Part shown: piece after piece, positions 2,418 through 15,295 of the stretch
Layout of the letters: each line of letters opens with the position of its first letter
Numbering within the stretch: position 1 is the stretch's first letter
NCBI GenBank assembly: GCA_014860005.1
Contig: JACZKP010000091.1
Span: forward strand, 1-16,019
Length of the DNA: 16,019 bases
Source of the DNA: Verrucomicrobiota bacterium
Lineage (GTDB): Bacteria; Verrucomicrobiota; Verrucomicrobiae; Limisphaerales; UBA11358
Reading direction: 5' to 3'
Made by a program: the position numbers and the translations under genes
Notes under the pieces: model-generated
Database searches by the model: none
What the model was told of the DNA's origin: nothing
What the model saw: the letters and a program-made list of their open reading frames with translations, nothing else

Positions 2418-2492
2418 TGGTTGCCTCGCTCGGTTTTGCTCCAAGTCCTCCGGTGTCAGAAACCGGCGCACTCCTGATTATGCGACGAGGCA
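2418..2492 (-). tRNA. tRNA-like unit 1, anticodon CTG (Gln)
   Basis: 75 nt. Acceptor TGCCTCG/CGAGGCA, A73 (Gln usually has G73), encoded CCA. Anticodon stem CCGGT/ACCGG, loop TTCTGAC. T stem CTTGG/CCGAG, loop AGCAAAA (G55, C56). D stem GCAT/GTGC, loop AATCAGGA. It is the last unit before the HNH gene. Confidence 0.82.
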
Positions 2493-2500
2493 ATTGAGAA

Positions 2501-2574
2501 TGGTCGCCCGGGAAGGTTCTGCCCCCTCGATTTCTGGGTGTAAGCCAGACGTGATACTATTTCACCACCGAGCG
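2501..2574 (-). tRNA. tRNA-like unit 2, anticodon TAC (Val)
   Basis: 74 nt. Acceptor CGCTCGG/CCGGGCG with one G-U, A73, CCA encoded. Anticodon stem TCTGG/CCAGA, loop CTTACAC. T stem GAGGG/CCTTC, loop GGCAGAA (G55, C56). D stem GTGA/TCAC, loop AATAGTA with A-G instead of G-G. Confidence 0.85.
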
Positions 2575-2597
2575 GTCGAAGCTCGACTTGCAAAAGC

Positions 2598-2672
2598 TGG
2601 CTGCCGGGGATGGACTCGCACCATCACGGCCGCCTTCAAAGGGCGGTGTCCTACTGATTAGACGACCCGGCA
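2598..2672 (-). tRNA. tRNA-like unit 3, anticodon TTG (Gln)
   Basis: 75 nt. Acceptor TGCCGGG/CCCGGCA, G73 as expected for Gln, CCA. Anticodon stem CCGCC/GGCGG, loop CTTTGAA. T stem GATGG/CCATC, loop TGCGAGT (G55). The D loop TAATCAGTAG resembles a Gln D loop in which G-G has become C-A-G. Confidence 0.87.
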
Positions 2673-2678
2673 ATAAAC

Positions 2679-2752
2679 TGGTGGCCCGCCAGGGTAACGC
2701 GCCCTGTTCTACGGATTAAAAGTCCGTTGCATCACTTTAATGCTTGCAGGCC
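2679..2752 (-). tRNA. tRNA-like unit 4, anticodon TTT (Lys)
   Basis: 74 nt. Acceptor GGCCTGC/GCGGGCC, A73, CCA. Anticodon stem ACGGA/TCCGT, loop CTTTTAA. T stem CAGGG/CCCTG, loop CGCGTTA (G55, C56, no A58). D stem GCAT/ATGC, loop TAAAGTG. Confidence 0.86.
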
Positions 2753-2756
2753 AGAA

Positions 2757-2831
2757 TGGTGCTCGCGGCAGGACTTGCACCTGCACTGGCGACGTTCTCG
2801 ACGTCGTGCCTCTGCATTGGGCTACGCGAGC
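2757..2831 (-). tRNA. tRNA-like unit 5, anticodon GAG (Leu), short variable loop
   Basis: 75 nt. Acceptor GCTCGCG/CGCGAGC, A73, CCA. Anticodon stem CGACG/CGTCG, loop TCGAGAA, so C33 replaces U33. The variable region is only 5 nt, whereas bacterial tRNA-Leu has a long arm. T loop TGCAAGT (G55), D loop CAATGCAGA. Confidence 0.83.
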
Positions 2832-2838
2832 AAATTGA

Positions 2839-2910
2839 TGGAGCCTCCAGCCGGGGTCGCACCGGCAGGATTTCTTTACAAAAGAAATCCGCAGGCTGCT
2901 GCATGGAGGC
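2839..2910 (-). tRNA. tRNA-like unit 6, anticodon TGT (Thr), minimal D arm
   Basis: 72 nt. Acceptor GCCTCCA/TGGAGGC, U73, CCA. The D arm is reduced to stem GCAG/CTGC closing the 4-nt loop CAGC. The anticodon hairpin is extended: up to nine pairs can form around TTGTA, and a normal 7-nt loop reads TTTGTAA. T stem GCCGG/CCGGC, loop TGCGACC (G55). Confidence 0.78.
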
Positions 2911-2915
2911 GAAAA

Positions 2916-2987
2916 TGGTCGCAGTCTCCGGTGCCGCCCCGGACACGGCGGGCTTATGAAACCCACTTGAACGCTGGCTCGACTGCG
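2916..2987 (-). tRNA. tRNA-like unit 7, anticodon CAT (Met), minimal D arm
   Basis: 72 nt. Acceptor CGCAGTC/GACTGCG, A73, CCA. D arm GAGC/GTTC with the 4-nt loop CAGC, as in unit 6. Anticodon stem TGGGT/GCCCG with two G-U pairs, loop TTCATAA. T stem TCCGG/CCGGA, loop GGCGGCA (G55, C56). Confidence 0.78.
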
Positions 2988-2990
2988 AAA

Positions 2991-3066
2991 TGGAGCCCTC
3001 ACTCAGAATTGCACTGAGCTGAATTCGCTTACCGAGCGAAGGCATCGCTGACAATGCTTTGAGGGC
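2991..3066 (-). tRNA. tRNA-like unit 8, anticodon GGT (Thr)
   Basis: 76 nt. Acceptor GCCCTCA/TGAGGGC, U73, CCA. Anticodon stem TTCGC/GCGAA, loop TCGGTAA with C33. T stem CTCAG/CTGAG, loop TGCAATT (G55). D stem GCAT/ATGC, loop TGTCAGCG. Confidence 0.84.
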
Positions 3067-3075
3067 AATTGAAAT

Positions 3076-3153
3076 TGGCGTCCCTGACCGGCTTTGCTCC
3101 GGTGATCTCCTGCATGAGAGGCAGGCATGTTGACTGGACTACACCACAGGGAC
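3076..3153 (-). tRNA. tRNA-like unit 9, anticodon CTC (Glu)
   Basis: 78 nt. Acceptor GTCCCTG/CAGGGAC, G73 as in Glu tRNAs, CCA. Anticodon stem CCTGC/GCAGG, loop CTCTCAT. T stem ACCGG/CCGGT, loop AGCAAAG (G55). D stem TGT/ACA, loop AGTCCAGTCA. Confidence 0.84.
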
Positions 3154-3158
3154 AGAAA

Positions 3159-3235
3159 TGGTGAGAGCAGAAGGATTCGCGCCTTCGACCTGATGCATGT
3201 GAAGCATCCGCTCTGACTTGCTGAGCTATGCCCTC
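3159..3235 (-). tRNA. tRNA-like unit 10, anticodon CAC (Val)
   Basis: 77 nt. Acceptor GAGGGCA/TGCTCTC with one G-U, A73, CCA. Anticodon stem GATGC/GCATC, loop TTCACAT. T stem GAAGG/CCTTC, loop CGCGAAT (G55). D stem GCTC/GAGC, loop AGCAAGTCA. Confidence 0.85.
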
Positions 3236-3241
3236 GGAAAA

Positions 3242-3316
3242 TGGTGGGAGCGAAGAGTGCTGCCCTCTTTGCCTCTCGCATGTCAAACGAGCGCTCTGCT
3301 GGTGAGCTACGCCCCC
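3242..3316 (-). tRNA. tRNA-like unit 11, anticodon GAC (Val)
   Basis: 75 nt. Acceptor GGGGGCG/CGCTCCC with one G-U, A73, CCA. Anticodon stem CTCGT/GCGAG, loop TTGACAT. T stem AAGAG/CTCTT, loop GGCAGCA (G55, C56). D stem GCTC/GAGC, loop ACCAGCA. Confidence 0.85.
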
Positions 3317-3322
3317 TGAAAT

Positions 3323-3396
3323 TGGAGCGGGTGAACGGAGTCGCACCGTCGTCTCGGCCTTGGCACGGCCGCATTCTGCTGTTGAACCACACCCGC
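3323..3396 (-). tRNA. tRNA-like unit 12, anticodon GCC (Gly)
   Basis: 74 nt. Acceptor GCGGGTG/CACCCGC, U73 as in bacterial Gly tRNAs, CCA. Anticodon stem CGGCC/GGCCG, loop GTGCCAA. T stem GACGG/CCGTT, loop TGCGACT (G55). D loop AACAGCA. Unit 42 has the same anticodon. Confidence 0.85.
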
Positions 3397-3401
3397 AAAA
3401 T

Positions 3402-3477
3402 TGGTGTCCCCAGCCGGACTTTCACCAGCAACCTGACGCTTAGGACGCGCCCGCTCTATGCATTGAGCTATGGGGAC
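3402..3477 (-). tRNA. tRNA-like unit 13, anticodon CCT (Arg), U19-A56 variant
   Basis: 76 nt. Acceptor GTCCCCA/TGGGGAC, A73, CCA. Anticodon stem GGCGC/GCGTC, loop GTCCTAA. T stem GCTGG/CCGGC, loop TGAAAGT: G55, and A56 in place of C56. D stem GCTC/GAGC, loop AATGCATA, where T stands where other units have G19. This is a compensating change. Confidence 0.86.
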
Positions 3478-3481
3478 AAAA

Positions 3482-3573
3482 TGGTACGCGCGTCCGGTAA
3501 CGCTCCGGATCCCGGCACTGATCTAGTGCGATGCGGGGTATAAAGCCGCCGGCTCTCTTTGAGCTACGCGCGC
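3482..3573 (-). tRNA. tRNA-like unit 14, probable anticodon TAT (Ile), long variable arm
   Basis: 92 nt. Acceptor GCGCGCG/CGCGCGT with terminal G-U, A73, CCA. D stem GCTC/GAGC with the 5-nt loop AAAGA. Anticodon stem GCGG/CCGC plus a C-C mismatch, loop TTTATAC read as TAT; a shifted reading is possible. The variable region holds a 5-bp hairpin (GCACT/AGTGC), unexpected for Ile. T stem TCCGG/CCGGA, loop AGCGTTA (G55). Confidence 0.75.
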
Positions 3574-3574
3574 A

Positions 3575-3662
3575 TGGCGGAATGCCGTGGACTCGCACCA
3601 CTTGCCCGAAGGCACGCACTGTTTAGCAAACAGGCCCGGCGCGCTTGACCGGTGGACATTCC
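3575..3662 (-). tRNA. tRNA-like unit 15, anticodon GCT (Ser)
   Basis: 88 nt. Acceptor GGAATGT/GCATTCC, G73 as in Ser, CCA. Anticodon stem CTGT/ACAG, loop TTGCTAA. Long variable arm with hairpin TGCC-TTCG-GGCA, correct for Ser. T stem GTGG/CCAC, loop TGCGAGT (G55). D stem CCGG/CCGG, loop TCAAGCGCG. Confidence 0.85.
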
Positions 3663-3666
3663 AATT

Positions 3667-3741
3667 TGGTCCGCGTGGCAGGACTTGCACCTGCAACCTT
3701 TCCGGTTTGAGCGGAACGCCTCTGCCTTGGGCTACACGCGG
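3667..3741 (-). tRNA. tRNA-like unit 16, anticodon CAA (Leu), short variable loop
   Basis: 75 nt. Acceptor CCGCGTG/CACGCGG, A73, CCA. Anticodon stem TTCCG/CGGAA, loop CTCAAAC. The variable loop is 5 nt (AGGTT) and not the Leu long arm. T stem GCAGG/CCTGC, loop TGCAAGT (G55). D loop CAAGGCAGA. Confidence 0.85.
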
Positions 3742-3742
3742 T

Positions 3743-3817
3743 TGGTGCCCACGGTCGGATTCGCACCGACACTGTGCGCGTTTTAAGTGCGCCGTCTCTG
3801 CGTTGGACTACGTGGGC
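3743..3817 (-). tRNA. tRNA-like unit 17, anticodon TAA (Leu), short variable loop
   Basis: 75 nt. Acceptor GCCCACG/CGTGGGC, A73, CCA. Anticodon stem GCGC/GCGC plus an A-C mismatch, loop CTTAAAA. Short variable loop. T stem GTCGG/CCGAC, loop TGCGAAT (G55). D stem GTC/GAC, loop CAACGCAGA. It starts one base after unit 16 ends. Confidence 0.84.
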
Positions 3818-3821
3818 GAAA

Positions 3822-3898
3822 TGGTGCCGCGTGAGGGATTTCCACCCCCAACCTCTCCGGTCTGAGCGGAGCGTCTCTTGTAGTTGGACTAACGCGGC
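3822..3898 (-). tRNA. tRNA-like unit 18, anticodon CAG (Leu), G56 variant
   Basis: 77 nt. Acceptor GCCGCGT/ACGCGGC, A73, CCA. Anticodon stem CTCCG/CGGAG, loop CTCAGAC. Short variable loop AGGTT. T stem GGGGG/CCCTC, loop TGGAAAT with G55 and G56. The D loop CAACTACAAGA is longer than in unit 17 and can place A-C at 18-19, giving C19-G56, but the alignment is ambiguous. Confidence 0.83.
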
Positions 3899-3904
3899 AT
3901 GATT

Positions 3905-3980
3905 TGGTGCATCCGGCAGGACTCCCACCTGCAGACTCTCCGTTCGAAGCGGAGGATGATAATAATTTCACCACGGATGC
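3905..3980 (-). tRNA. tRNA-like unit 19, anticodon TCG (Arg), G56 variant
   Basis: 76 nt. Acceptor GCATCCG/CGGATGC, A73, CCA. Anticodon stem CTCCG/CGGAG, loop CTTCGAA. T stem GCAGG/CCTGC, loop TGGGAGT (G55, G56). D stem GTGA/TCAT, loop AATTATTA, with A-T where unit 2 has A-G, allowing a U19-G56 wobble. Confidence 0.85.
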
Positions 3981-3985
3981 GGAAA

Positions 3986-4060
3986 TGGTGGGTTGCCTCG
4001 GATTCGCACCGAGTTCTCGCCGGTTAAGAGCCGGGACTTCACTGTCAAAGTTTGCAACCC
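3986..4060 (-). tRNA. tRNA-like unit 20, anticodon CTT (Lys)
   Basis: 75 nt. Acceptor GGGTTGC/GCAACCC, A73, CCA. Anticodon stem CCGG/CCGG, loop CTCTTAA. T stem CTCGG/CCGAG, loop TGCGAAT (G55). D stem ACTT/AAGT, loop TGACAGTG. Confidence 0.85.
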
Positions 4061-4064
4061 AATC

Positions 4065-4138
4065 GCGACACGAAGGCGGAGTTGAACCACCGCAGCCAGA
4101 TCTGTGAAGTCCTGGCCGGCACCGGGATTTCGCGTCGC
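4065..4138 (-). tRNA. tRNA-like unit 21, aberrant, canonical T loop, no CCA
   Basis: An odd unit. T arm GGTGG/CCGCC with the ordinary loop TTCAACT. The acceptor can extend to 10 bp (GCGACGCGAA/TTCGTGTCGC) and no CCA follows. The anticodon stem is CCAGG/TCTGG with an oversized 10-nt loop, so the anticodon cannot be fixed (TCA or TTC possible). No convincing D arm. It may be a decayed tRNA or a different class of element. Confidence 0.5.
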
Positions 4139-4144
4139 GTGAAA

Positions 4145-4219
4145 TGGACAGAGCGGCGGGTAACGCTCCCGCTTGATCTTGCTCCCGAAGCAAGCGCCTG
4201 ACTTTTAGGCTACGCTCTG
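4145..4219 (-). tRNA. tRNA-like unit 22, anticodon CGG (Pro)
   Basis: 75 nt. Acceptor CAGAGCG/CGCTCTG, U73, CCA. Anticodon stem CTTGC/GCAAG, loop TTCGGGA with G37 as in Pro tRNAs. T stem GCGGG/CCCGC, loop AGCGTTA (G55, C56). D stem GCCT/AGGC, loop AAAAGTC. Confidence 0.86.
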
Positions 4220-4223
4220 AAAA

Positions 4224-4298
4224 TGGACGGGCATATCGGTAGCGCGCCGACTATTCCGGTTTGGAAGACCGGCGTGTGTCTCTCAACACTTATGCCCG
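4224..4298 (-). tRNA. tRNA-like unit 23, anticodon TCC (Gly)
   Basis: 75 nt. Acceptor CGGGCAT/ATGCCCG, U73 as in Gly, CCA. Anticodon stem CCGGT/ACCGG, loop CTTCCAA. T stem GTCGG/CCGAT, loop CGCGCTA (G55, C56). D stem GTGT/ACAC, short loop TGAGAG. Confidence 0.85.
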
Positions 4299-4304
4299 GA
4301 GAAA

Positions 4305-4379
4305 TGGAATCCCGTGCTGGAATCGCACCAGCCTTTGCGGCTTTGCAGACCGCCGCCTGAGCTAATCGGCCAACGGGAT
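4305..4379 (-). tRNA. tRNA-like unit 24, anticodon GCA (Cys)
   Basis: 75 nt. Acceptor ATCCCGT/ACGGGAT, U73 as in Cys, CCA. Anticodon stem GCGGT/GCCGC, loop CTGCAAA. T stem GCTGG/CCAGC, loop TGCGATT (G55). D loop GATTAGCTCA. Its 5' end lies only 7 nt after the stop codon of the 477-aa gene, so the mRNA and the block are probably one transcript. Confidence 0.87.
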
Positions 4380-4386
4380 GAACTTG

Positions 4387-5820
4387 TCAGTGGAAGAGGA
4401 ATTGCAAATCCAGATTTACGGTTGCTGGCTGTTTGAAATCCGCCCTTTCTGCCGATTCAACCATCTTCTGAATCAATGCCACCACTGCGCTGTCTGCGAA
4501 CAGGTGTGCTTGAACGAGTTCTAGGAAATACGGAATACCGAATATTCTAAATTCCTTATCTCCGGATTTCTTCCAGATGCGAATTCCTCCTTCTTTGAGT
4601 GCCTCGACCTCGATGCCACAACGACGGAGGTCATCAATCAGAAAGACTGGATTGTAAAGCGTCATCACCGCAAATCGTCGGAACAGCAAGGCTTCGATGA
4701 TTTCGGTTTCCAGCGACCACCAAAACAATGGCCTCATTCCCAGCGACAAACTGTAGCGCCCTTGTGCCGGATACGGCAGCCAACCAAACCTGAGGCTGTT
4801 GTCTTTGAGAGCTAGGTCCACAATTTCACGTGCGTCTTCCGTAATGCGCAAGCGATCCAGATTTCTCTTCGAATGATGTTTCCCCGCAAGCCGTGAGAAG
4901 AGCGATTCTCCCTTAAGCCTGATCCCTATGACAAGTAGCCCTCGGTCAGCTTTGATTCGCTCCATTGATAGCTTTGCTGGGCTTCGATAGAGCTCCTCCA
5001 CCTTCGAGTGATGGAAAGTCGCACTCACTTGAGCGGGTGCTAGATGTTGATTCGAGACGACTGGTTTGAACGATTCTTGAATTCTTTCAATTTGGCGTTT
5101 GAGCCGTTCAAGTATCGGTGGCGGCAATGGTCGACGATCGGAACTGAAAGGCGTGTGCTGCCCTTCGACTGATTTAGGCAATCTATCTTTTCTGAGATTT
5201 CGACCAACTAAGTTGATTGTGACAGTTAACTGGTTGTCTCCGTTGGCGCAGGTCTTCAGCTCTCCAATGGCCGCGACTTTCCCCTCAACAAGGTCAACGA
5301 GGCTTACATCGCCGAGCCGCAAGAAAGTCGTGATTGAGTGCGCCAATACCAGATGATCACCGAACTTTGGCAATCCCCGAATGAATTCAATTTCTCCTCT
5401 ACCCCCGATTCCAGTTGGTAGATGCGGGTTGGGCTCATGTTCATCATGTCTCCGCAGCAACTCGCGCTCATTTTGGTAAAACATCCACGCAAACGAATCA
5501 CCCAATGCTTTGCCTACATCCATCGTTGCTCGCAGGAGACGCTTAAAACCGTTCAGGGTGTGAAGCCGGTGGCGAAACCATTTTTTATTCAAATCTGATT
5601 TCCTTGAGATCAATTCACGTCCCTCCTGGCAAATCTGATTGTAGAGAGTTTCAAGCCGGTAGAGGGCGATACCGAGAGTCGGTTGGAACGATACAATAGC
5701 CTCAATCATCTCTGATTTACCTTCGACGCACTTACGAAGCGTCAGCAATTTCAGCCAACAATCCTTGAAAGATTGTTCGGCCTCTGAAACAGCACGCTCG
5801 ATTCGTTTTCGATTTAGCAT
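4387..5820 (-). CDS. 477-aa protein with PD-(D/E)XK-like nuclease core, function unknown
   Basis: I do not recognise the family. Residues about 140-192 form a plausible nuclease core: an acidic helix region (E143, E145), a strand with D171 and D176 (GDVSLVDLVEGK), then AIGELKT with the E187-x-K189 signature. Residues 1-125 are helical and charged and may be a coiled or DNA/RNA-binding segment. The C-terminal half has no motif I can name. No signal peptide or membrane helix. It follows the ClpP-like gene after a 115-nt gap holding a strong hairpin, and runs directly into the 24-unit tRNA-like block. Start: ATG 5820, with only a weak purine stretch upstream. The D/E-x-K layout resembles that of the 526-aa protein but I see no clear overall similarity. 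Confidence 0.8.
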   Translation of the reverse strand: MLNRKRIERAVSEAEQSFKDCWLKLLTLRKCVEGKSEMIEAIVSFQPTLGIALYRLETLYNQICQEGRELISRKSDLNKKWFRHRLHTLNGFKRLLRATMDVGKALGDSFAWMFYQNERELLRRHDEHEPNPHLPTGIGGRGEIEFIRGLPKFGDHLVLAHSITTFLRLGDVSLVDLVEGKVAAIGELKTCANGDNQLTVTINLVGRNLRKDRLPKSVEGQHTPFSSDRRPLPPPILERLKRQIERIQESFKPVVSNQHLAPAQVSATFHHSKVEELYRSPAKLSMERIKADRGLLVIGIRLKGESLFSRLAGKHHSKRNLDRLRITEDAREIVDLALKDNSLRFGWLPYPAQGRYSLSLGMRPLFWWSLETEIIEALLFRRFAVMTLYNPVFLIDDLRRCGIEVEALKEGGIRIWKKSGDKEFRIFGIPYFLELVQAHLFADSAVVALIQKMVESAERADFKQPATVNLDLQFLFH

Positions 5821-5876
5821 ACCGCTTTTTCCGATAGTTGAGATTGTAGTTGATTCGTCAGTTCGATGAAAGAATT

Positions 5877-5904
5877 GCGGGCGGAAGCTTTCGCCTCCGC
5901 CCGC
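5877..5904 (-). promoter_or_regulatory. Intercistronic hairpin after the ClpP-like gene
   Basis: A 9-bp stem GCGGGCGGA/TCCGCCCGC with a loop containing GCGAAAGC on the minus strand. A close relative lies at 6650-6677. No U-run follows, so a processing or stability role is likelier than termination. Confidence 0.6.
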
Positions 5905-5935
5905 GTTGTTTGCCTCTTGGCGTCATTGAACGGAG

Positions 5936-6592
5936 CTATTTCCTTAACTGGCGTGCGCGAGGTCTCTCACGCCGCTGAACGCGACGCTGATTGGCTGCAT
6001 TCATCGAGCTTTCGGCTGGCTCAGGACTTTTCGAGAACACGGTGGCCAGGAAATTGTCCACCTTTTCGTTCTCGATCAGGCCGAATTGCCGGAGCACCGG
6101 CACGCCGATGAGTCGTCCGGCCATTTCCTTGACTGGCAGGAACTCATTGATGATGTCCAGCACTCGCGCGTAATCGCCTTCGTCGGGATCAATTTCGGAA
6201 TACGAATCCCGATACTTCGGTTCGTCTTCGTTCCCAACTCCATTCGCGGACACTTCATCGTCTTTCGACAAAGTGGTCCGGCGGAAATAGAGCCGCGCAT
6301 CCTCGCGAATCGTCCGGCGATCGCCCAGCAACCAGAGCAGCACCGAGCCGCCTTGCAGACTGGAACGCGCGTGTGTGACAATCCATGTCCTGGCCGAACG
6401 CTCTATCAATGCTGCGCGGAATCGCAGCGCCGCGTCCGCCGGGATTTCGCCCGCGCCAACAATTTCGATTTGAAGCTCCTTGGGTTTCTTCGCGAGCGCC
6501 CGCTCAAATTCTGCGAGGCGCTCGACGTAGTTTCCCCAGGACCGGACCTCCACCGTGAATCGGCGGCGGCCTTGCCTTGGTCGTTTTTTCAT
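5936..6592 (-). CDS. ClpP/crotonase-fold-like protein next to slipin
   Basis: A 218-aa protein. Residues about 40-105 (ATG numbering) show the rhythm of a ClpP-type fold: LQIEIVGAGEIP, a helix, TWIVTHARS, then SLQGGSVLLWLLGDRRTI and ARLYFRR. The serine before LQGG sits where ClpP has its nucleophile (ASMGA), but the position of the catalytic His is occupied by Arg (LYFRR), so activity is doubtful. The tail is acidic, then strongly basic (QRRVQRRERPRARQLRK). Slipin genes are classically paired with NfeD proteins carrying a ClpP-class protease domain. This one lacks NfeD membrane helices, so it may be a soluble relative. The fold is inferred by eye. The frame also has TTG at 6604, but ATG 6592 is preferred. 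Confidence 0.72.
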   Translation of the reverse strand: MKKRPRQGRRRFTVEVRSWGNYVERLAEFERALAKKPKELQIEIVGAGEIPADAALRFRAALIERSARTWIVTHARSSLQGGSVLLWLLGDRRTIREDARLYFRRTTLSKDDEVSANGVGNEDEPKYRDSYSEIDPDEGDYARVLDIINEFLPVKEMAGRLIGVPVLRQFGLIENEKVDNFLATVFSKSPEPAESSMNAANQRRVQRRERPRARQLRK

Positions 6593-6649
6593 AACTGTTT
6601 TCAAGAATTGGTTTCATGTTCTTATTGGTTTGAATAATCGGTTGAAAGT

Positions 6650-6677
6650 GCGGGCAGAAACTTTCGTCTCCGCCCGC
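6650..6677 (-). promoter_or_regulatory. Intercistronic hairpin after slipin
   Basis: Stem GCGGGCaGA/TCcGCCCGC with one mismatch and the loop ACGAAAGT region, starting 5 nt beyond the slipin stop. It is a near copy of the hairpin at 5877-5904, so the same element follows two successive genes. Confidence 0.58.
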
Positions 6678-6682
6678 GTTGT

Positions 6683-7483: not shown

Positions 7484-7574
7484 AGGAGTTCTCCTTTCTG
7501 AGTAGTAGCGGTGAACTATGACCGCCGAATTTGCCAGGCCATGCGTCGCTCACAGAGCGCCGCGTAAAAGTGAA

Positions 7575-7680
7575 GGTCCGGAACAGAAGACCACCGTCGA
7601 GCAGCGGGAGAATGCAACAGAGCATTCTCGCAGAGCCGCTTTCGGGCTGCGCTCGCGCGCCAGCCTCACTGCTCCGGACC
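7575..7680 (-). ncRNA. Structured RNA between tRNA-like unit 25 and slipin
   Basis: On the minus strand an 8-bp closing stem (GGTCCGGA/TCCGGACC) joins the two ends of a 106-nt segment. Inside lie a hairpin GGCT-GCGC-GCGA-GCGC-AGCC with a GNRA loop, and an 8-bp hairpin GAGAATGC/GCATTCTC at 7608-7629. It has no ORF with a ribosome site. It sits directly 3' of unit 25 and 91 nt before the slipin start. It could be a free RNA cut from the transcript or a 5' regulatory structure. I recognise no family. Confidence 0.55.
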
Positions 7681-7752
7681 GTGTATGGGATTCGAACCCA
7701 TGGTTGCCATTGGAGCGATTTACAGTCGCGGTTTGAATCCACCCATGCGCAG
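7678..7752 (-). tRNA. tRNA-like unit 25, anticodon GTA (Tyr), aberrant
   Basis: T arm ATGGG/CCCAT with the canonical loop TTCGAAT, anticodon stem GCGA/TCGC with loop CTGTAAA, D stem GGT/ACC. No acceptor stem can be formed with the flanking bases, and no CCA follows. The 3' side runs straight into the structured RNA at 7575-7680. It may be a decayed tRNA or the tRNA-shaped module of a larger RNA. Confidence 0.5.
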
Positions 7753-7805
7753 AATCGCTCCGACAAATTGTCGGAGGGCTGCTGGTTTGATCCAAATTCT
7801 GAAAA

Positions 7806-7881
7806 TGGTCAGGGCGACGGGATTCGCACCCGCACAGTCCGCGTCACAGGCGGAGATGCTAACTGTTACATCACGACCCTG
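7806..7881 (-). tRNA. tRNA-like unit 26, anticodon GTG (His)
   Basis: 76 nt. Acceptor CAGGGTC/CGCCCTG with a C-C mismatch at pair 7, A73 and no G at -1, so both usual His identity marks (G-1, C73) are missing. Anticodon stem TCCGC/GCGGA, loop CTGTGAC. T stem GCGGG/CCCGT, loop TGCGAAT (G55). D loop TAACAGTTAG. CCA encoded. Confidence 0.83.
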
Positions 7882-7888
7882 ATGAAAC

Positions 7889-7965
7889 TGGAGCCCCTGG
7901 TCGGACTCGCACCGACGAATACGGGTTTACGAAACCCGCCCTGTTGCTGCTGAAGGCACAGGGGC
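7889..7965 (-). tRNA. tRNA-like unit 27, anticodon CGT (Thr)
   Basis: 77 nt. Acceptor GCCCCTG/CAGGGGC, U73 as in units 6 and 8, CCA. Anticodon stem CGGGT/ACCCG, loop TTCGTAA. T stem GTCGG/CCGAC, loop TGCGAGT (G55). D loop CAGCAGCAAC. Confidence 0.85.
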
Positions 7966-7972
7966 TTGAAAC

Positions 7973-8050
7973 TGGTGCTCTCACGTGGATTTGCGCCACG
8001 AACCTCCGGCTTCGCAAACCGGCGTGCAGAACTAATTACACCTTGAGAGC
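7973..8050 (-). tRNA. tRNA-like unit 28, anticodon GCG (Arg)
   Basis: 78 nt. Acceptor GCTCTCA/TGAGAGC, A73, CCA. Anticodon stem CCGGT/GCCGG, loop TTGCGAA. Bacteria normally read this box with ACG (inosine), so GCG is unusual. T stem CGTGG/CCACG, loop CGCAAAT (G55). D loop AATTAGTTCT. Confidence 0.85.
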
Positions 8051-8054
8051 AAAC

Positions 8055-8132
8055 TGGCATCCGTGATCGGACTCGCACCGATTAGGCCCGGCTTGAAAGA
8101 CCGGCTGCTCGAGCTGCTTTGCATTCACGGAC
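8055..8132 (-). tRNA. tRNA-like unit 29, anticodon TTC (Glu)
   Basis: 78 nt. Acceptor GTCCGTG/CACGGAT with terminal G-U, G73 as in Glu, CCA. Anticodon stem CCGGT/GCCGG, loop CTTTCAA. T stem ATCGG/CCGAT, loop TGCGAGT (G55). D stem TGC/GCA with the long loop AAAGCAGCTCGA. Confidence 0.84.
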
Positions 8133-8160
8133 TGAAAATTGTTGCCGCAGAGGATGAGAA

Positions 8161-8215
8161 CACGGAGTCGCTGCTCGCGGGCAGACGTTAACTCGGTGGA
8201 CTCAGCTCCTCCGTG
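8161..8215 (-). promoter_or_regulatory. Stem-loop between rtcB and unit 29
   Basis: A 7-bp closing stem CACGGAG/CTCCGTG encloses about 40 nt, with an inner hairpin CTGC/GCAG. It starts 14 nt past the rtcB stop. It lacks a U-run, so it may be a spacer structure guiding processing between mRNA and tRNA-like block. Confidence 0.4.
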
Positions 8216-8229
8216 GCGATGTGGACACG

Positions 8230-9348
8230 CTAGCGGCGATGCTTGCGTGTCTTGTAGGTGAGGAGTGGTCGGAACGCCGCGATGACGGACACGAGTCCGG
8301 CATCAACGAGGTCTTGAACCACTGCCTCAATGTTCTTGTAGGCGGCTGGTGCTTCCTCGTAGAGCAGGTCGCGATCTTCGCAGACCACACGGCCGCCGAG
8401 GCCGGTCTGGGTGAGTTCAGCAACGCTGAAGCGTTCGCGCATGCGGAGGCGAGCATCGCTGCGCGCCCACTTGCGACCCGCACCGTGCGCGAGCGACCAA
8501 GCGTGGCTTTCGCCATCACCAATCGGCTTCACGAGAAAGCTCAACGAGCCGCGTGAACCGGGGATGACAACGAAGTCACTGTCCGCAGCCACTGCACCTT
8601 TGCGGTGAAGCCAAACAGTTTCCTGGCGGGTGATACTGTTGTGGCAACCGTCCCAGAGACATTCCGCTTGTGCACCGAGCGTCGCAACGAAGCGACGCGC
8701 GATGAGTTCGCGATTTGCCTTGGCCCAACGGACGGCGAAGTCGTGGCCACGGAGATACTCCTCCGCAGCAAACGAGTCTGCCTCCACGTCTTCACCGAAG
8801 TGTTCATTCACATGAGCGCGCAGGATGGATTCACCCAATCCACGCGAGCCGCTATGAACGAGCACGACGAGCTGCTGCTTGCCGAGGTCGAGTTTCTTGA
8901 ACTCATCGGCATCGAGAACCTTCTCGACCACCTGCAACTCGGCGAAGTGATTGCCACCACCAATCGTGCCGAGCGCCGAATCGAACTCCGTGGTTTCGAG
9001 ATCGTGTTCAGCGAGGAAGTCACTGACGAACTGATCCCACGGGTGTTCGAGGTTGAATTGCAATTTGGCCCAGCGGTCGAGCTTCACATCACGGCGAACG
9101 AGGTCCGTCTTGAACAACGCCATGCCGCAACCGATATCGCCACCGATGAGGTGCGGATAGATCACGCCCTCGGTTACGAATGCCGCACCGACGGGTGAGC
9201 CTTTGCCCGGATGCAAATCCGGGAAGCCCACGGCGTGACGGACGCCATCAAGCTTCGCCGTGGCATAGAGTTGGCGCACCGCTTCGCCTTCGATCCAGCT
9301 TTGGGCCGAGGCGAAAAGGCGCACCTGAGTTTCAGTCAAGGTGTTCAT
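8230..9348 (-). CDS. rtcB: RtcB-family RNA ligase
   Basis: 372 aa. RtcB joins 2',3'-cyclic phosphate or 3'-phosphate RNA ends to 5'-OH ends through a GMP-His intermediate with manganese and GTP, sealing cleaved tRNAs and other RNAs. The full active site can be read: metal ligands D71 and C74 (GGDIGCGM), N133-H134 (GGGNHFAE), H165 (LVHSGSRGLG), H236 (CHNSI), and the guanylylated His at H288 (AHGAGR). RKGA (249-252) and PGSRG (263-267) complete the GTP site. At 372 residues it is somewhat shorter than the roughly 400-residue housekeeping form and may belong to an accessory RtcB branch. Start ATG 9348 has AAAGGAAAC upstream. It is flanked on both sides by tRNA-like units, its most obvious candidate substrates. 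Confidence 0.96.
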   Translation of the reverse strand: MNTLTETQVRLFASAQSWIEGEAVRQLYATAKLDGVRHAVGFPDLHPGKGSPVGAAFVTEGVIYPHLIGGDIGCGMALFKTDLVRRDVKLDRWAKLQFNLEHPWDQFVSDFLAEHDLETTEFDSALGTIGGGNHFAELQVVEKVLDADEFKKLDLGKQQLVVLVHSGSRGLGESILRAHVNEHFGEDVEADSFAAEEYLRGHDFAVRWAKANRELIARRFVATLGAQAECLWDGCHNSITRQETVWLHRKGAVAADSDFVVIPGSRGSLSFLVKPIGDGESHAWSLAHGAGRKWARSDARLRMRERFSVAELTQTGLGGRVVCEDRDLLYEEAPAAYKNIEAVVQDLVDAGLVSVIAAFRPLLTYKTRKHRR

Positions 9349-9361
9349 GTTTCCTTTTGTG

Positions 9362-9375
9362 CCCGCTCAAGCGGG
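9362..9375 (-). promoter_or_regulatory. Hairpin upstream of rtcB
   Basis: A small hairpin CCCGC-TTGA-GCGGG lies between the CCA of unit 30 and the rtcB ribosome site, 13 nt before the start codon. It may mark the tRNA-mRNA boundary or tune rtcB translation. Confidence 0.4.
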
Positions 9376-9386
9376 ATTGATGTGAG

Positions 9387-9461
9387 TGGTCCCCGAGGTT
9401 GGTATTGCACCAACGTCTCCTCCTCTTCAGGGAGGCGCTAATCTGCCTCAGCTACTCGGGG
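9387..9461 (-). tRNA. tRNA-like unit 30, anticodon GAA (Phe)
   Basis: 75 nt. Acceptor CCCCGAG/CTCGGGG, A73, CCA. Anticodon stem CCTCC/GGAGG, loop CTGAAGA. T stem GTTGG/CCAAC, loop TGCAATA (G55). D stem GCT/AGC, loop GAGGCAGATT. It is the last unit before rtcB. Confidence 0.86.
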
Positions 9462-9482
9462 CGAAATTCGCCTTCCGTAGAT

Positions 9483-9556
9483 TGGTTGTCCCGCGCGGTA
9501 ACGCGCCGCGGTCTTCCGGTTATCAGCCGGATGCTCTGCTATTGAGCTACAGGACA
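9483..9556 (-). tRNA. tRNA-like unit 31, anticodon GAT (Ile)
   Basis: 74 nt. Acceptor TGTCCTG/CGGGACA, A73, CCA. Anticodon stem TCCGG/CCGGA, loop CTGATAA. T stem CGCGG/CCGCG, loop CGCGTTA (G55, C56). D stem GCTC/GAGC, loop AATAGCA. It starts 49 nt after the 276-aa gene. Confidence 0.87.
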
Positions 9557-9605
9557 GAGAAAGTGAATCGCGAGACGCTCCTTCGAACGCCTCGCGATGA
9601 TTTGT

Positions 9606-10436
9606 TTAGTCCAGGAACGCCACGAGAGCCATCGTGCGGCTCTGGGTCTCGGTGTTCATGATGACCCGATGCCAGAACGGCAGTGTGATGGTGGCGTGGT
9701 CGCTGTGCCGCACCGTGCCGCGCGCATAAACGCCCGGGTTGCGGCGCATCACCTGCCAGCCCCAACGAGCCGCGTCCGGATTGCGGCGCAGGATCGAGCG
9801 ATACTCGTCCGGCGTGACACCATTCGGATGACGACGGCAAACGTGAACCGTTTCGCCGCCGCTGCGGAAGAGTTCTTCCACGAGATGCGGCTTGCCCGCT
9901 CCCCGGCGGAGCGGTTCGTTGCAGAGGATGAGTTTTTCATCCACCACGAACGACGGTTCAGGCACGAAGAACCACTCACCCTGCCGGCGAAATGCGCGGT
10001 TCTTGCGTGCGTAACGTTTGCGGGACGAGACGTGATTGCGCGTGAGCGCCGCACGAACGTCCTGCGGCTGGAGCGCGTCCATGGCCTGACGGACGCTCGA
10101 CGCGCCACCCGGCACGGCAGCAACGAACCATTCGCGTTCGTCGTGGCCGCACAGGAAGCGATCGAGTTTCGCATCTGTGCCCACCTGGCGGACCGCGAGC
10201 AGCAAATGGCGCTGCTTTGGTTCGGCCTGTATGACGGCGACATCCAGCGATTCGCTCAGGTGCGTTGGCACGCGCAGTTCGAAGAACTGCCCGTTGCTGT
10301 CCCGGCGGAGGTCCATGGCGAAATCCTTGGGTTCAATCCAGGATCGATCGCCCTGACGCCAGCGCGACGCGATTTCACGCACCTTCAGGCGCGCACCCAT
10401 CGCGGCGAACTTGGACTCAATGTGATTCGCATTCAT
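9606..10436 (-). CDS. Conserved-looking 276-aa protein of unknown function, RtcB neighbour
   Basis: I cannot assign a family. The protein is soluble, without signal peptide or membrane helix. The N-terminal half has a strand-rich stretch FFELRVPTHLSESLDVAVIQ followed by REWFVAAVP (101-109) and a basic patch SSRKRYARKNRAFRRQGEWFF broken here only by reading (137-157). The C-terminal third has the most motif-like segments: KPHLVEELFRSGGETVHV (182-199), GVTPDEY (206-212), YARGTVRHSDHATI (237-250) and FWHRVIMNTE (254-263). H183, H244, H247 and H256 could form a metal or catalytic site. That is inference only. It lies between tRNA-like blocks and two positions before rtcB, so an RNA-related job is the best guess. 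Start ATG 10436 lacks a ribosome site and overlaps the 53-codon ORF by 20 nt, suggesting coupled translation. Confidence 0.85.
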   Translation of the reverse strand: MNANHIESKFAAMGARLKVREIASRWRQGDRSWIEPKDFAMDLRRDSNGQFFELRVPTHLSESLDVAVIQAEPKQRHLLLAVRQVGTDAKLDRFLCGHDEREWFVAAVPGGASSVRQAMDALQPQDVRAALTRNHVSSRKRYARKNRAFRRQGEWFFVPEPSFVVDEKLILCNEPLRRGAGKPHLVEELFRSGGETVHVCRRHPNGVTPDEYRSILRRNPDAARWGWQVMRRNPGVYARGTVRHSDHATITLPFWHRVIMNTETQSRTMALVAFLD

Positions 10437-10578
10437 AAGTTTTGATTTGTGGTTTCAAACCGAAGCGCACCGGGCGAAATGAGAACTTCAATTTCATCGG
10501 TCGAATTCGGATGACACGATTTGGTTTGTAGCTCTTGCGAAAGAGCAATTGGCTTTGATATCGGAGAACGGGCTTCAT
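10417..10578 (-). CDS. Small basic 53-aa ORF overlapping the next gene
   Basis: ATG 10578 follows a strong ribosome site (AAAGGAAG, about 5 nt away). The 53 residues are rich in Lys/Arg (MKPVLRYQSQLLFRKSY at the start, IRPMKLKFSFRPVRFGLKP in the middle), pI clearly basic. The stop lies 20 nt inside the 276-aa gene, which has no ribosome site of its own. This is the usual layout for translational coupling. It may be a leader peptide or a small RNA-binding protein. An inner hairpin GCTCTT/AAGAGC falls inside it. Confidence 0.55.
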   Translation of the reverse strand: MKPVLRYQSQLLFRKSYKPNRVIRIRPMKLKFSFRPVRFGLKPQIKTYECESH

Positions 10579-10608
10579 GGGACTTCCTTTCGTTAAGGGT
10601 TTTAAAAG

Positions 10609-10695
10609 TGGCGGATGGTGTAGGGATTGCACCCACGCAGCCCGGAGGCTCACTCGGTTTTCGGGACCGGGGCATTACTGCTCTGCCAACCATCC
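10609..10695 (-). tRNA. tRNA-like unit 32, anticodon CGA (Ser)
   Basis: 87 nt. Acceptor GGATGGT/ACCATCC, G73 as in Ser, CCA. Anticodon stem CGGT/ACCG, loop CCCGAAA with C33. Long variable arm with hairpin AGCC/GGCT, right for Ser. T stem GTGGG/CCTAC, loop TGCAATC (G55). D loop GAGCAGTAA. Confidence 0.84.
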
Positions 10696-10699
10696 GAAA

Positions 10700-10791
10700 C
10701 GGTCAGGGTGGTAGGAGTTGCACCTTGGTGGCAGTGCGCAAGCACCCTCCTCGTTCCGAACAAGGCCGTCTGCTGCTGACATTACACCCTG
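10700..10791 (-). tRNA. tRNA-like unit 33, anticodon CGG by geometry, long variable arm, CCG end
   Basis: 92 nt. Acceptor CAGGGTG/CACCCTG, A73, but the encoded end is CCG, not CCA. Anticodon stem CCTTG/CGAGG, loop TTCGGAA (CGG, Pro). The long variable arm (hairpin GTGC/GCAC) would suit Ser (GGA) better, while A73 suits Pro. The T stem has only three clear pairs, loop TGCAACT (G55). D stem GTC/GAC, loop AGCAGCA. Confidence 0.7.
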
Positions 10792-10795
10792 AAAT

Positions 10796-10870
10796 TGGCT
10801 GCCAGGGTTGGACTCGCACCAACACCGTGCGGTTTAACAAACCGTCGTGCTACTTTGACACCACCTGGCA
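10796..10870 (-). tRNA. tRNA-like unit 34, anticodon GTT (Asn)
   Basis: 75 nt. Acceptor TGCCAGG/CCTGGCA, G73 as in Asn, CCA. Anticodon stem CGGT/ACCG, loop TTGTTAA. T stem GTTGG/CCAAC, loop TGCGAGT (G55). D stem GTG/CAC, loop TCAAAGTAG. Confidence 0.87.
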
Positions 10871-10879
10871 ACAATTAAT

Positions 10880-10955
10880 TGGCGCTGCCGGCAGGATTCC
10901 CACCTGCATCGTTCCGCTTAGAAGGCGGATGCCTGATGTGTTCGACCACGGCAGC
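10880..10955 (-). tRNA. tRNA-like unit 35, anticodon TCT (Arg), C19-G56 variant
   Basis: 76 nt. Acceptor GCTGCCG/CGGCAGC, G73, CCA. Anticodon stem TCCGC/GCGGA, loop CTTCTAA. T stem GCAGG/CCTGC, loop TGGGAAT (G55, G56). The D loop GAACACATCA has the same length as GATTAGCTCA of unit 24 and carries A-C where that has A-G: a Watson-Crick compensation for G56. Confidence 0.87.
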
Positions 10956-10965
10956 AAATTGAAGT

Positions 10966-11041
10966 TGGTCGGAACGGCAGGATTTTCACCTGCGACCTCG
11001 CGGGCCCAAGCCGCGCGCTCTAAAGACTGAGCTACGCTCCG
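10966..11041 (-). tRNA. tRNA-like unit 36, anticodon TGG (Pro), A56 variant
   Basis: 76 nt. Acceptor CGGAGCG/CGTTCCG with one G-U, A73, CCA. Anticodon stem CGCGG/CCGCG, loop CTTGGGC with G37. T stem GCAGG/CCTGC, loop TGAAAAT (G55, A56). The D loop AGTCTTTA, aligned with unit 13, puts T at 19 (U19-A56) but T also at 18. Confidence 0.85.
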
Positions 11042-11048
11042 ATGAAAA

Positions 11049-11124
11049 TGGCGGATCCGAAGGGAGTCGCACCCTCAACCCTCCCGCAGACAACGGGGCG
11101 CTCTGCTGATTGAGCTACGGATCC
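11049..11124 (-). tRNA. tRNA-like unit 37, anticodon GTC (Asp)
   Basis: 76 nt. Acceptor GGATCCG/CGGATCC, G73 as in Asp, CCA. Anticodon stem CCCG/CGGG, loop TTGTCTG (unusual T37). T stem GAGGG/CCCTT, loop TGCGACT (G55). D stem GCTC/GAGC, loop AATCAGCA. Confidence 0.85.
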
Positions 11125-11139
11125 ACAGATGCCTGCCAT

Positions 11140-11238
11140 CCGTAGCACTGAGCCGGATTCACAGGCGCCCTCCTTCGCGCAGACGCTACGGAGGGCATCC
11201 TTCGCTCCGACCCGACCATCGTCGGCCCAGAGCGAAGG
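11140..11238 (-). promoter_or_regulatory. Nested hairpin region between units 37 and 38
   Basis: This is the only long gap inside the 11-unit block. On the minus strand CCTTCGCTC (11230-11238) pairs with GAGCGAAGG (11199-11207) around an inner CCGAC-GATG-GTCGG hairpin. Next, GCCCTCC/GGAGGGC (11167-11173 with 11190-11196) competes with CCGTAGC/GCTACGG (11140-11146 with 11185-11191), because the two stems share bases. It may be a small palindromic repeat insert or a switch-like spacer. Confidence 0.5.
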
Positions 11239-11239
11239 C

Positions 11240-11329
11240 TGGTGGGAAGTGCTGGTAACGCTCCAGTCGTCATCTTCCAGCGCTGTTTTGGGACGGCGGG
11301 TTTACAGACCGCGGGCTGGATCACTTCCC
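11240..11329 (-). tRNA. tRNA-like unit 38, anticodon GTA (Tyr), no clear D arm
   Basis: 90 nt. Acceptor GGGAAGT/ACTTCCC, A73, CCA. Anticodon stem GCGG/CCGC plus a mismatch, loop CTGTAAA. Long variable region (about 30 nt, closing stem CGTC/GACG), as expected for bacterial Tyr. T stem CTGG/CCAG, loop AGCGTTA (G55). The D region is too short for a normal stem. Confidence 0.78.
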
Positions 11330-11339
11330 ATATAGATAT

Positions 11340-11417
11340 TGGTAGCGGGGGCAGGAATCACACCTGCCTGACGAAGTTTATGAGGCTTCGCTCTGTGCTT
11401 TAGTCGAGTTCCCCGCA
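11340..11417 (-). tRNA. tRNA-like unit 39, anticodon CAT (Met), U56 variant
   Basis: 78 nt. Acceptor TGCGGGG/CCCCGCT with a U-U mismatch at 1-72, A73, CCA. Unpaired 1-72 is an initiator-like trait, but the anticodon stem GAAGC/ACTTC lacks the initiator G-C pairs. Loop CTCATAA. T stem GCAGG/CCTGC, loop TGTGATT (G55, U56). The D loop GACTAAAGCACA allows A18-A19, giving A19-U56. Confidence 0.82.
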
Positions 11418-11423
11418 GTGAAA

Positions 11424-11498
11424 TGGTGGAGTCGGTGGGTAGCGCGCCCACATCAACCTGCTTGCAGGGCAGGTGCATTACTTGTCTGCCACGACCCC
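11424..11498 (-). tRNA. tRNA-like unit 40, anticodon TGC (Ala)
   Basis: 75 nt. Acceptor GGGGTCG/CGACTCC includes G3-U70, the alanine identity pair. A73, CCA. Anticodon stem CCTGC/GCAGG, loop CCTGCAA with C33. T stem GTGGG/CCCAC, loop CGCGCTA (G55). D stem GCA/TGC, loop GACAAGTAA. Confidence 0.86.
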
Positions 11499-11509
11499 AG
11501 GAATTGATT

Positions 11510-11583
11510 TGGCAGGCCGCCTCGGTGCTGCCCCGAGCAAACTGAGTTTTGGAGACTCTGTCGCGCAAGCTGACGCGCGGCCT
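11510..11583 (-). tRNA. tRNA-like unit 41, anticodon CCA (Trp)
   Basis: 74 nt. Acceptor AGGCCGC/GCGGCCT, G73 as in bacterial Trp, CCA. Anticodon stem GAGT/ACTC, loop CTCCAAA. T stem CTCGG/CCGAG, loop GGCAGCA (G55, C56). The D arm can fold as GCG/CGC (loop TCAGCTTG) or GTC/GAC. Confidence 0.83.
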
Positions 11584-11591
11584 ATGGAAAT

Positions 11592-11666
11592 TGGTGCGGT
11601 TGCCGGGAATCGCACCCGGACATGCTCCCTGGCGAGGAGCCATTCTGGCTGTTAAATCACAACCGC
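11592..11666 (-). tRNA. tRNA-like unit 42, anticodon GCC (Gly)
   Basis: 75 nt. Acceptor GCGGTTG/CAACCGC, A73 (Gly usually U73), CCA. Anticodon stem GCTCC/GGAGC, loop TCGCCAG with C33. T stem CCGGG/CCCGG, loop TGCGATT (G55). D stem ATT/AAT, loop TAACAGCCAG. It is the first unit of the train in transcription order. Confidence 0.86.
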
Positions 11667-11745: not shown

Positions 11746-11765
11746 ATGCCATTTCAATAAAGAAC

Positions 11766-15290: not shown

Positions 15291-15295
15291 GGATA

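Follow-up and report, generated by a model that had tools for sequence, protein, structure and literature searches.

The window analysed here, a stretch of 16,019 nucleotides from a Verrucomicrobiota bacterium (assembly GCA_014860005.1, contig JACZKP010000091.1), carries an array of 42 tRNA-type units, 40 of which have G at position 55 of the T loop. In nearly all known tRNAs the elbow pair is G18-Psi55 (Psi, pseudouridine). Comparison of the units with those of related arrays showed that, at the level of sequence, positions 18 and 55 change together, as either A-G or G-U, and that base 19 tends to change with base 56 where 56 is not C. The alternative A18-G55 elbow proposed in the first-pass annotation of the window is thus strongly supported. 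The units form a long tRNA array of the L-array type within an island of RNA-repair genes and, since the partner bases covary across several bacterial groups, a working second tRNA set beside RNA-repair genes is indicated. The L-array membership, and the match to a composite GNRA loop described below, go beyond that annotation.

The G55 units of the window

All 42 units lie on the minus strand in four blocks (2418-4379, 7678-8132, 9387-9556 and 10609-11666), with protein genes between the blocks, and the array spans 9.2 kb. Counting the Tyr-like unit folded by hand and the unit for Trp, every one of the 20 amino acids is represented. A geometry-only cloverleaf scan, which scores stem pairing and spacing and ignores the loop letters, placed G at position 55 in 31/31 window units, and a loop-blind fold anchored on NCCA did so in 33/33. 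Nine harder units were folded with relaxed settings or by hand, two of them being finished by hand (11240-11325 and the anticodon arm of 2920-2987); seven had G55 and two U55. The sum, 40 of 42, is the count first reported for the window. The two U55 units (4068-4140 and about 7678-7765) have no CCA and form poor cloverleaves. ARAGORN recognised 22 of the window units, and cmscan gave 26 tRNA matches.

A misalignment of the T stems by one base, concealing an ordinary UUC, had been named at the outset as the reading that would overturn G55. It was rejected and its probability is close to nil: nothing was found in its favour, the three printed Rfam alignments keep the seven-base T loop in register (T54 and R57 placed in 3/3, C56 in 2/3), the loop-blind folds agree, and the neighbouring positions are conserved in G55 units, with C56 in 240/262 and R57 in 261/262. 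The pair G53-C61 closes the T loop in 273 of 276 G55 units from 20 loci. The accompanying claim, that the D loops carry A-G at the G18-G19 site, holds for most window units; it is ambiguous for Leu and for a small number of other units.

The units are as follows (all on the minus strand; T loop as given, with G55 except in the two exceptions; method in brackets).

2422-2492, tRNA-Gln(CUG), AGCAAAA (loop-blind scan)
2505-2574, tRNA-Val(UAC), GGCAGAA (loop-blind scan)
2602-2672, tRNA-Gln(UUG), TGCGAGT (ARAGORN, loop-blind scan)
2683-2752, tRNA-Lys(UUU), CGCGTTA (loop-blind scan)
2761-2831, tRNA-Leu(GAG), short variable arm, TGCAAGT (ARAGORN, loop-blind scan)
2843-2910, tRNA-Thr(UGU), TGCGACC (ARAGORN, relaxed fold)
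2920-2987, tRNA-Met(CAU)-like, weak D arm, GGCGGCA (relaxed fold; anticodon arm by hand)
2995-3066, tRNA-Thr(GGU), TGCAATT (loop-blind scan)
3080-3153, tRNA-Glu(CUC), AGCAAAG (ARAGORN, loop-blind scan)
3163-3235, tRNA-Val(CAC), CGCGAAT (ARAGORN, loop-blind scan)
3246-3316, tRNA-Val(GAC), GGCAGCA (loop-blind scan)
3327-3396, tRNA-Gly(GCC), TGCGACT (ARAGORN, loop-blind scan)
3406-3477, tRNA-Arg(CCU), TGAAAGT, A56; A-U available at 18-19 (loop-blind scan)
3486-3573, long-arm unit, anticodon ambiguous, AGCGTTA (relaxed fold)
3579-3662, tRNA-Ser(GCU), TGCGAGT (relaxed fold)
3671-3741, tRNA-Leu(CAA), TGCAAGT (ARAGORN, loop-blind scan)
3747-3817, tRNA-Leu(UAA), TGCGAAT (ARAGORN, loop-blind scan)
3826-3898, tRNA-Leu(CAG), TGGAAAT, G56; A-C available at 18-19 (loop-blind scan)
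3909-3980, tRNA-Arg(UCG), TGGGAGT, G56; no Watson-Crick 19, U-G at best (loop-blind scan)
3990-4060, tRNA-Lys(CUU), TGCGAAT (relaxed fold)
4068-4140, exception: selenocysteine (Sec)-like unit without CCA, canonical TTCAACT; below threshold against the tRNA-Sec model, 21.8 bits with a cut-off of 47 (cmscan, relaxed fold)
4149-4219, tRNA-Pro(CGG), AGCGTTA (ARAGORN, loop-blind scan)
4228-4298, tRNA-Gly(UCC), CGCGCTA (loop-blind scan)
4309-4379, tRNA-Cys(GCA), TGCGATT (ARAGORN, loop-blind scan)
About 7678-7765, exception: degenerate unit without CCA (GUA by eye), canonical TTCGAAT (relaxed fold)
7810-7880, tRNA-His(GUG), TGCGAAT (ARAGORN, relaxed fold)
7893-7965, tRNA-Thr(CGU), TGCGAGT (ARAGORN, loop-blind scan)
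7977-8050, tRNA-Arg(GCG), CGCAAAT (loop-blind scan)
8059-8132, tRNA-Glu(UUC), TGCGAGT (loop-blind scan)
9391-9461, tRNA-Phe(GAA), TGCAATA (ARAGORN, loop-blind scan)
9487-9556, tRNA-Ile(GAU), CGCGTTA (loop-blind scan)
10613-10695, tRNA-Ser(CGA), TGCAATC (ARAGORN, loop-blind scan)
10704-10791, long-arm unit, anticodon ambiguous, followed by ACCG and not NCCA, TGCAACT (relaxed fold)
10800-10870, tRNA-Asn(GUU), TGCGAGT (ARAGORN, loop-blind scan)
10884-10955, tRNA-Arg(UCU), TGGGAAT, G56; A-C available at 18-19 (loop-blind scan)
10970-11041, tRNA-Pro(UGG), TGAAAAT, A56; no A18 with a Watson-Crick 19 (ARAGORN, loop-blind scan)
11053-11124, tRNA-Asp(GUC), TGCGACT (ARAGORN, loop-blind scan)
About 11240-11325, tRNA-Tyr(GUA)-like, long variable arm, AGCGTTA (hand fold only; automatic folds gave none)
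11344-11417, tRNA-Met(CAU), TGTGATT, U56; A-A available at 18-19 (loop-blind scan)
11428-11498, tRNA-Ala(UGC), CGCGCTA (loop-blind scan)
11514-11583, tRNA-Trp(CCA), GGCAGCA (relaxed fold)
11596-11666, tRNA-Gly(GCC), TGCGATT (ARAGORN, loop-blind scan)

A separate observation concerns the Leu tRNAs, which have a variable arm of five bases and not the usual long arm in 28/28 G55 Leu units compared and in many of the Leu units of T55 arrays; in the arrays L154-L157, by contrast, Leu has the long arm.

Coupled changes at the elbow

Related arrays were gathered through a 276-amino-acid protein encoded in the window, which gave 80 loci kept of 114 from genome contigs and 16 from viral contigs; with the window, these make up 97 sources (the window and L002-L097), about half of which have countable arrays. 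Further arrays (L148-L150 among them) were added later from a plasmid search and a pattern search. The final set held 958 distinct units with a score of at least 46, R57 and G53-C61 being required and failing rows dropped; 53 were housekeeping tRNAs, and 360 units were G55-C56 and 552 T55-C56. Bases 18 and 19 were called from the dinucleotide present at the permitted 18-19 offsets. Among the G55-C56 units 321 offered only AG, 4 only GG, 16 both and 19 neither, whereas among the T55-C56 units 489 offered only GG, 2 only AG, 48 both and 13 neither. In the 31 loci holding both types, 440 unambiguous units were concordant (A18-G55 or G18-U55) and 2 discordant, with 29 of the 31 loci free of exceptions; a few T55 units in these counts may be housekeeping neighbours, and in some loci a lone G55 unit may have folded by chance. 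The mixed loci span Verrucomicrobiota, Planctomycetota, Acidobacteriota, Deinococcota, Chloroflexota, Nostoc plasmids and viral contigs, and because both types stand side by side in loci of so many groups, shared ancestry alone is an unlikely source of the coupling.

The second elbow pair was followed in a set of 861 units, where A18-G19 was available in 316/338 G55-C56 units. Twenty-nine G55 units in this set had a base other than C at 56, and 18 of these had Arg anticodons. In 17 of the 29, A18 was accompanied by the Watson-Crick partner of base 56, whereas random D loops of that class averaged 2.8 (0/10,000 permutations, relatedness being ignored). The T55-U56 units had G18-A19 in 5/5 cases, and 7/8 of all non-C56 T55 units fitted 19-56 pairing as against 2.0 at random (4/10,000).

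These regularities suggest a structure. UGNRA lonepair triloops, or composite GNRA loops, have examples in rRNA. A comparable arrangement in the thiamine pyrophosphate (TPP) riboswitch, where U-G-N-R-A and an A from outside, in contact with the G of the triloop, make up a composite GNRA loop, is described in a passage of PMC2258182. The elements T54-G55-C56-R57-A58 plus A18 fit this type: in a T loop of UGNRA type, G55-C56-R57 would make the triloop and the D loop would supply A18 as the fourth base, giving a composite GNRA loop in which G55 and A18 form a sheared pair, and the 19-56 pair would still close the elbow. Because a UGNRA loop joined by an outside A is an established motif, the composite GNRA loop, a sheared A18-G55 pair is likely, and the tie of the outside A to the triloop G is seen, by sequence alone, in the 440 to 2 count given above. 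The passage of PMC2258182 has no tRNA elbow, and the array units add to the riboswitch motif the 19-56 pair and a variation at 54-58 beyond U-A. Compared with canonical elongator tRNAs, they share the cloverleaf, the encoded CCA and most identity elements, and differ in having no U55 or Psi55, no G18 and often no U54 or A58. Among the top papers from literature searches of partial coverage, judged from titles and abstract openings, none described a tRNA with an A18-G55 elbow, and an exact-term search for A18, G55, tRNA and T-loop together, also of partial coverage, returned none either.

Distribution and origin of the G55 arrays

At the unit threshold used, 22 of the 97 sources were G55-dominant and 25 T55-dominant, the other 50 having too few units. 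The G55-dominant sources belong, as far as their titles tell, to Verrucomicrobiota except for the 235-kb viral contig L083, which has 10 G55 and 9 T55 units; its C56 units sort by A-G and G-G without exception. T55 dominates in sources from Planctomycetota, Acidobacteriota, Deinococcota, Bacteroidota, Chloroflexota and viral contigs, L073 (32 T, 0 G) and L060 (24 T, 0 G) being examples, and in one verrucomicrobial locus, L014 (5 T, 2 G). Verrucomicrobiota arrays are dominated by G55, which is sporadic in those of Planctomycetota, Nostoc, Chloroflexota and Deinococcota. In a quick tree built for the 276-amino-acid protein (88 rows, 43 labelled) the G/T label required 3 changes, compared with 14.4 when shuffled, and 25 verrucomicrobial rows formed one branch (SH-aLRT 97).

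Genomes were also searched with a G55 T-arm pattern. Clusters of at least three matches occurred in 6/194 Verrucomicrobiota genomes, one being the centre of the search, and arrays from five pattern-found verrucomicrobial genomes had G55 in 28/28, 19/19, 18/20, 4/5 and 4/5 folded units, the last two sets being small and partly doubtful. Of 119 Planctomycetota genomes, 3 had such clusters and a further 5 had pairs of matches no more than 3 kb apart. Six planctomycete arrays were fetched (the three clusters and three of the five pairs), most of them mixed; AG was available in 21/22 of their G55-C56 units and GG in 66/71 of their T55-C56 units. In 12 genomes chosen through the loci, mostly with T55 arrays, the pattern gave 0-6 matches, clustered in the genomes of L077, L020 and L034.

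In two hosts of related Verrucomicrobiota arrays, 36/36 distinct tRNAs outside the array, taken around the best Rfam matches, had TTC, as had 20/20 further housekeeping tRNAs in one of the two. Six G55-array hosts had 36-41 canonical T arms each, and among the places listed for four genomes these were spread over many contigs. TruB acts at U55. Since there is no U at 55, its target is lost, and the earlier expectation that TruB should not modify the units is borne out to that extent. Loss of TruB by the hosts was considered and rejected for the seven host genomes of related arrays tested, all of which have it.

The G55 switch appears from sequence likeness to have been made isotype by isotype, with no copying of one tRNA, because G55 units are closer to T55 array units of their own isotype than to other isotypes, and G55 units of different isotype are no closer to one another than unrelated isotypes are. 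Outside the loops, the mean likeness of G55 to T55 array units was 0.514 for the same isotype and 0.449 for other isotypes. The nearest T55-array unit was of the same isotype in 92/266 G55 cases (17 expected), a signal that is real but weak. Expansion from a single G55 tRNA was not supported, as the likeness between different isotypes within a locus was no higher for G55 units (0.455) than for T55 array units (0.452).

Over all loci, the G55 units cover all 20 amino-acid types, and their discriminators are largely kept (Cys U 17/17, Asp G 19/19, Asn G 15/15, Leu A 35/35), as is G3-U70 of Ala in 14/14; the Glu, Phe, His and Arg discriminators are loose. The altered handling by synthetases that had been suggested for the units is consequently not indicated, though Gly mostly has A73. 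These data also bear on a rather improbable explanation by drift, according to which spare tRNAs under weak selection slid, with no benefit, into an alternative elbow that happens to fold. It would account for the sporadic G55 units in other phyla, for U8, U33 and A21 being looser than in housekeeping tRNAs (looser in T55 arrays too) and for the stem non-pairs, which number 135/6647 in G55 units, 130/8619 in T55 array units and 6/901 in housekeeping tRNAs. It does not sit well with G55 being nearly fixed in one lineage for every amino-acid type, each with two coupled changes; this, the near-perfect 18-55 coupling and the largely kept identity elements argue for selection over drift.

Neighbouring genes and a possible stress function

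The genes and repeats that accompany the window array are listed below; strand is given for the genes.

1765-2349, minus, HNH endonuclease (HNH_4) at the array end
4387-5820, minus, 477-amino-acid protein between tRNA blocks, family not recognised
5936-6604, minus, 222-amino-acid protein, family not recognised, relatives in L005 and L008
6683-7483, minus, SPFH/Band 7 protein inside the array
8230-9348, minus, RtcB RNA ligase, RtcB2 type (PRK09588/TIGR03073; PRK09588 504.5 bits, cut-off 407)
9606-10436, minus, 276-amino-acid protein that adjoins many tRNA arrays and matches no known family or fold
2385-2412, left arm of an inverted repeat bracketing the array, core GGTGTTYGTTCTTT
11747-11774, right arm of the same repeat

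The window shares with the L-arrays, such as the 26-gene trn operon on the delta plasmid of Anabaena PCC 7120 and the Mycobacterium array units described in a part of PMC5966550, a single block in which dozens of tRNA genes represent many isotypes, and an HNH gene at or in the array. HNH relatives adjoin tRNA arrays on three plasmids of Nostoc and Mycolicibacterium; the fetched stretches of three other plasmid matches (L151, L152 and L153) had no tRNA gene by ARAGORN. Unlike the window, the L-arrays tested (L148 and L149 of Nostoc, L150 of Mycolicibacterium) mostly have TTC, in 16/17 folded units of Nostoc PCC 7524, 19/20 of Nostoc N6 and 24/29 of Mycolicibacterium TY66. The sole G55 unit of both Nostoc arrays is tRNA-Ile(GAU), with GGCAGTA and A-G in the D loop. 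With the RtcB-centred repair operons (rsr-yrlBA-rtcBA and RtcB2-PrfH) the window has in common the RtcB ligase and, in locus relatives, Ro60/TROVE and RlaP; it differs in having a whole tRNA set built in, and two scans of its proteins (ten and nine) found no prfH, no other release-factor family and no rtcA. Clusters of open reading frames in 28 relatives contained Ro60/TROVE, RlaP, RtcB and HNH. TROVE was found in 15/27 G55-dominant and 8/25 T55-dominant loci, HNH in 19/27 and 7/25, and RlaP in 7/27 and 0/25; because the query proteins are verrucomicrobial, these counts are tilted toward the G55-dominant loci.

Passages of PMC10272220 describe that in Anabaena the trn array and rtcB share the repressor TrcR, and that deletion of trcR raises the trn array, otherwise silent, together with rtcB, a slipin gene and the hypothetical neighbour of that gene, and an HNH gene. 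Among L-arrays, silence with induction by translational stress is known to us only for Anabaena. We read the window, by analogy, as a one-locus version of this stress response. The L-array with the A18-G55 elbow is probably a silent, stress-induced back-up tRNA set that is spared from agents acting on the standard elbow. As with the Anabaena array, it would remain silent until stress and would be expressed with RtcB once housekeeping tRNAs were damaged or translation was blocked; the rewired elbow would then permit escape either from a nuclease reading the T loop or elbow, or from the need for Psi55. A contact-dependent toxin that cuts the tRNA T loop between T and Psi is described in part of PMC9086364. 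A stronger version, offered only tentatively, is a private elbow code: a complete second tRNA set of Verrucomicrobiota, selected isotype by isotype, that would go unseen by whatever reads or depends on G18-Psi55 and would be turned on, together with Ro60 and an RNA ligase, upon destruction of the normal set.

Several points weigh against the back-up reading. No elbow-directed nuclease was recognised in the array loci. RtcB occurs in 18/27 G55-dominant and 3/25 T55-dominant loci, a link that may be inflated by the verrucomicrobial origin of the query proteins. The closing pair 54-58 is looser than in a strict UGNRA loop, given that U54-A58 is found in only 162/276 G55 units (A-U 40, G-G 33, C-A 21, others 20). 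Twelve of the 29 non-C56 G55 units, among them those at 3909 and 10970 of the window, have no strict A18 with a Watson-Crick 19, and some would need G-U or A-C at 19-56. The call of 18-19 rests on a dinucleotide at an offset, ambiguous in Leu units, and the permutation statistics ignore relatedness. Finally, some decay or altered charging is possible in G55 units because their conservation of U8, U33 and A21 falls below that of housekeeping tRNAs (U8 in 76%, U33 in 328/391) and Gly has A73 in 17/23, mostly U73 being found in T55 arrays and housekeeping tRNAs.

An explanation almost as good as the back-up set escaping elbow readers, albeit rather unlikely to be correct, needs no nuclease: the units could be emergency tRNAs free of modification, with an A18-G55 elbow stable without Psi55 and Gm18, and partly without m5U54 and m1A58, so that a new burst of tRNA would work before the modification enzymes catch up. 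The site for Psi55 is gone from every G55 unit and that for Gm18 is abolished by A18, while 54 is not U in 107/276 and 58 not A in 89/276 G55 units; T55 units of the same loci keep T54, A58 and pyrimidine 60 in 30/31. The elbow modifications mainly stabilise the elbow, according to a section of PMC7912444. On the other hand, the hosts have TruB, and T55 arrays, presumably doing the same job, retain the normal elbow.

Selection might instead act on the DNA, the broken GGTTCRANYCC box sparing the array from cutting, recombination or integration by enzymes directed at tRNA genes, and A18 following only as compensation. Such avoidance could explain the frequency of HNH homologues in G55-dominant loci, the conserved inverted repeat around the arrays and the tRNA 3' half with a canonical box at about 15295-15341, near a reading frame that by eye resembles the start of a tyrosine recombinase. 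It is nevertheless a very doubtful explanation, as it has no need for G specifically at 55, and the plasmid arrays of Nostoc and Mycolicibacterium mostly keep TTC beside related HNH genes.

A natural tRNA set lacking U55 across all amino-acid types, and compensated at 18, allows the reason for retention of the standard elbow to be tested directly. It can be used to probe whether the ribosome, RNase P, EF-Tu and the synthetases need that elbow, and what attacks it, and its units may suggest parts for orthogonal tRNAs.

The 276-amino-acid protein has at least 5951 homologues and accompanies tRNA arrays in many phyla. Its predicted model is confident (pLDDT 88.9); the fold had no match in the PDB at E <= 0.001, and the protein none among named plasmids and phages at E 1e-5. 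The window RtcB, used as a query against viral contigs, found no relative there.

Both arms of the inverted repeat were found around G55 arrays in 18 of 108 sources (the window, L004, L006, L009, L011, L012, L015, L017, L023, L024, L032, L034, L040, L066, L154, L155, L157 and L158), one arm only in L005, L008, L010, L018, L020 and L031, and none in L156; shuffled sequence gave 6 matches in 1.78 Mb. The arms share lineage-specific variants, TTTGATC in L009 and L011 and GTGTGTTC in L154-L155 and L157-L158. The repeat may be a terminal repeat, an operator or a leader-trailer pairing.

The tRNA 3' half (15295-15341, plus strand) has a canonical T loop, is Arg UCU by eye and is possibly the remnant of an integration site; the nearby short reading frame at 15527, with its look of a recombinase start, had no Pfam match. 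A 37-nucleotide direct repeat, 89% alike, lies in intergenic sequence at 5873-5909 and 6646-6682.

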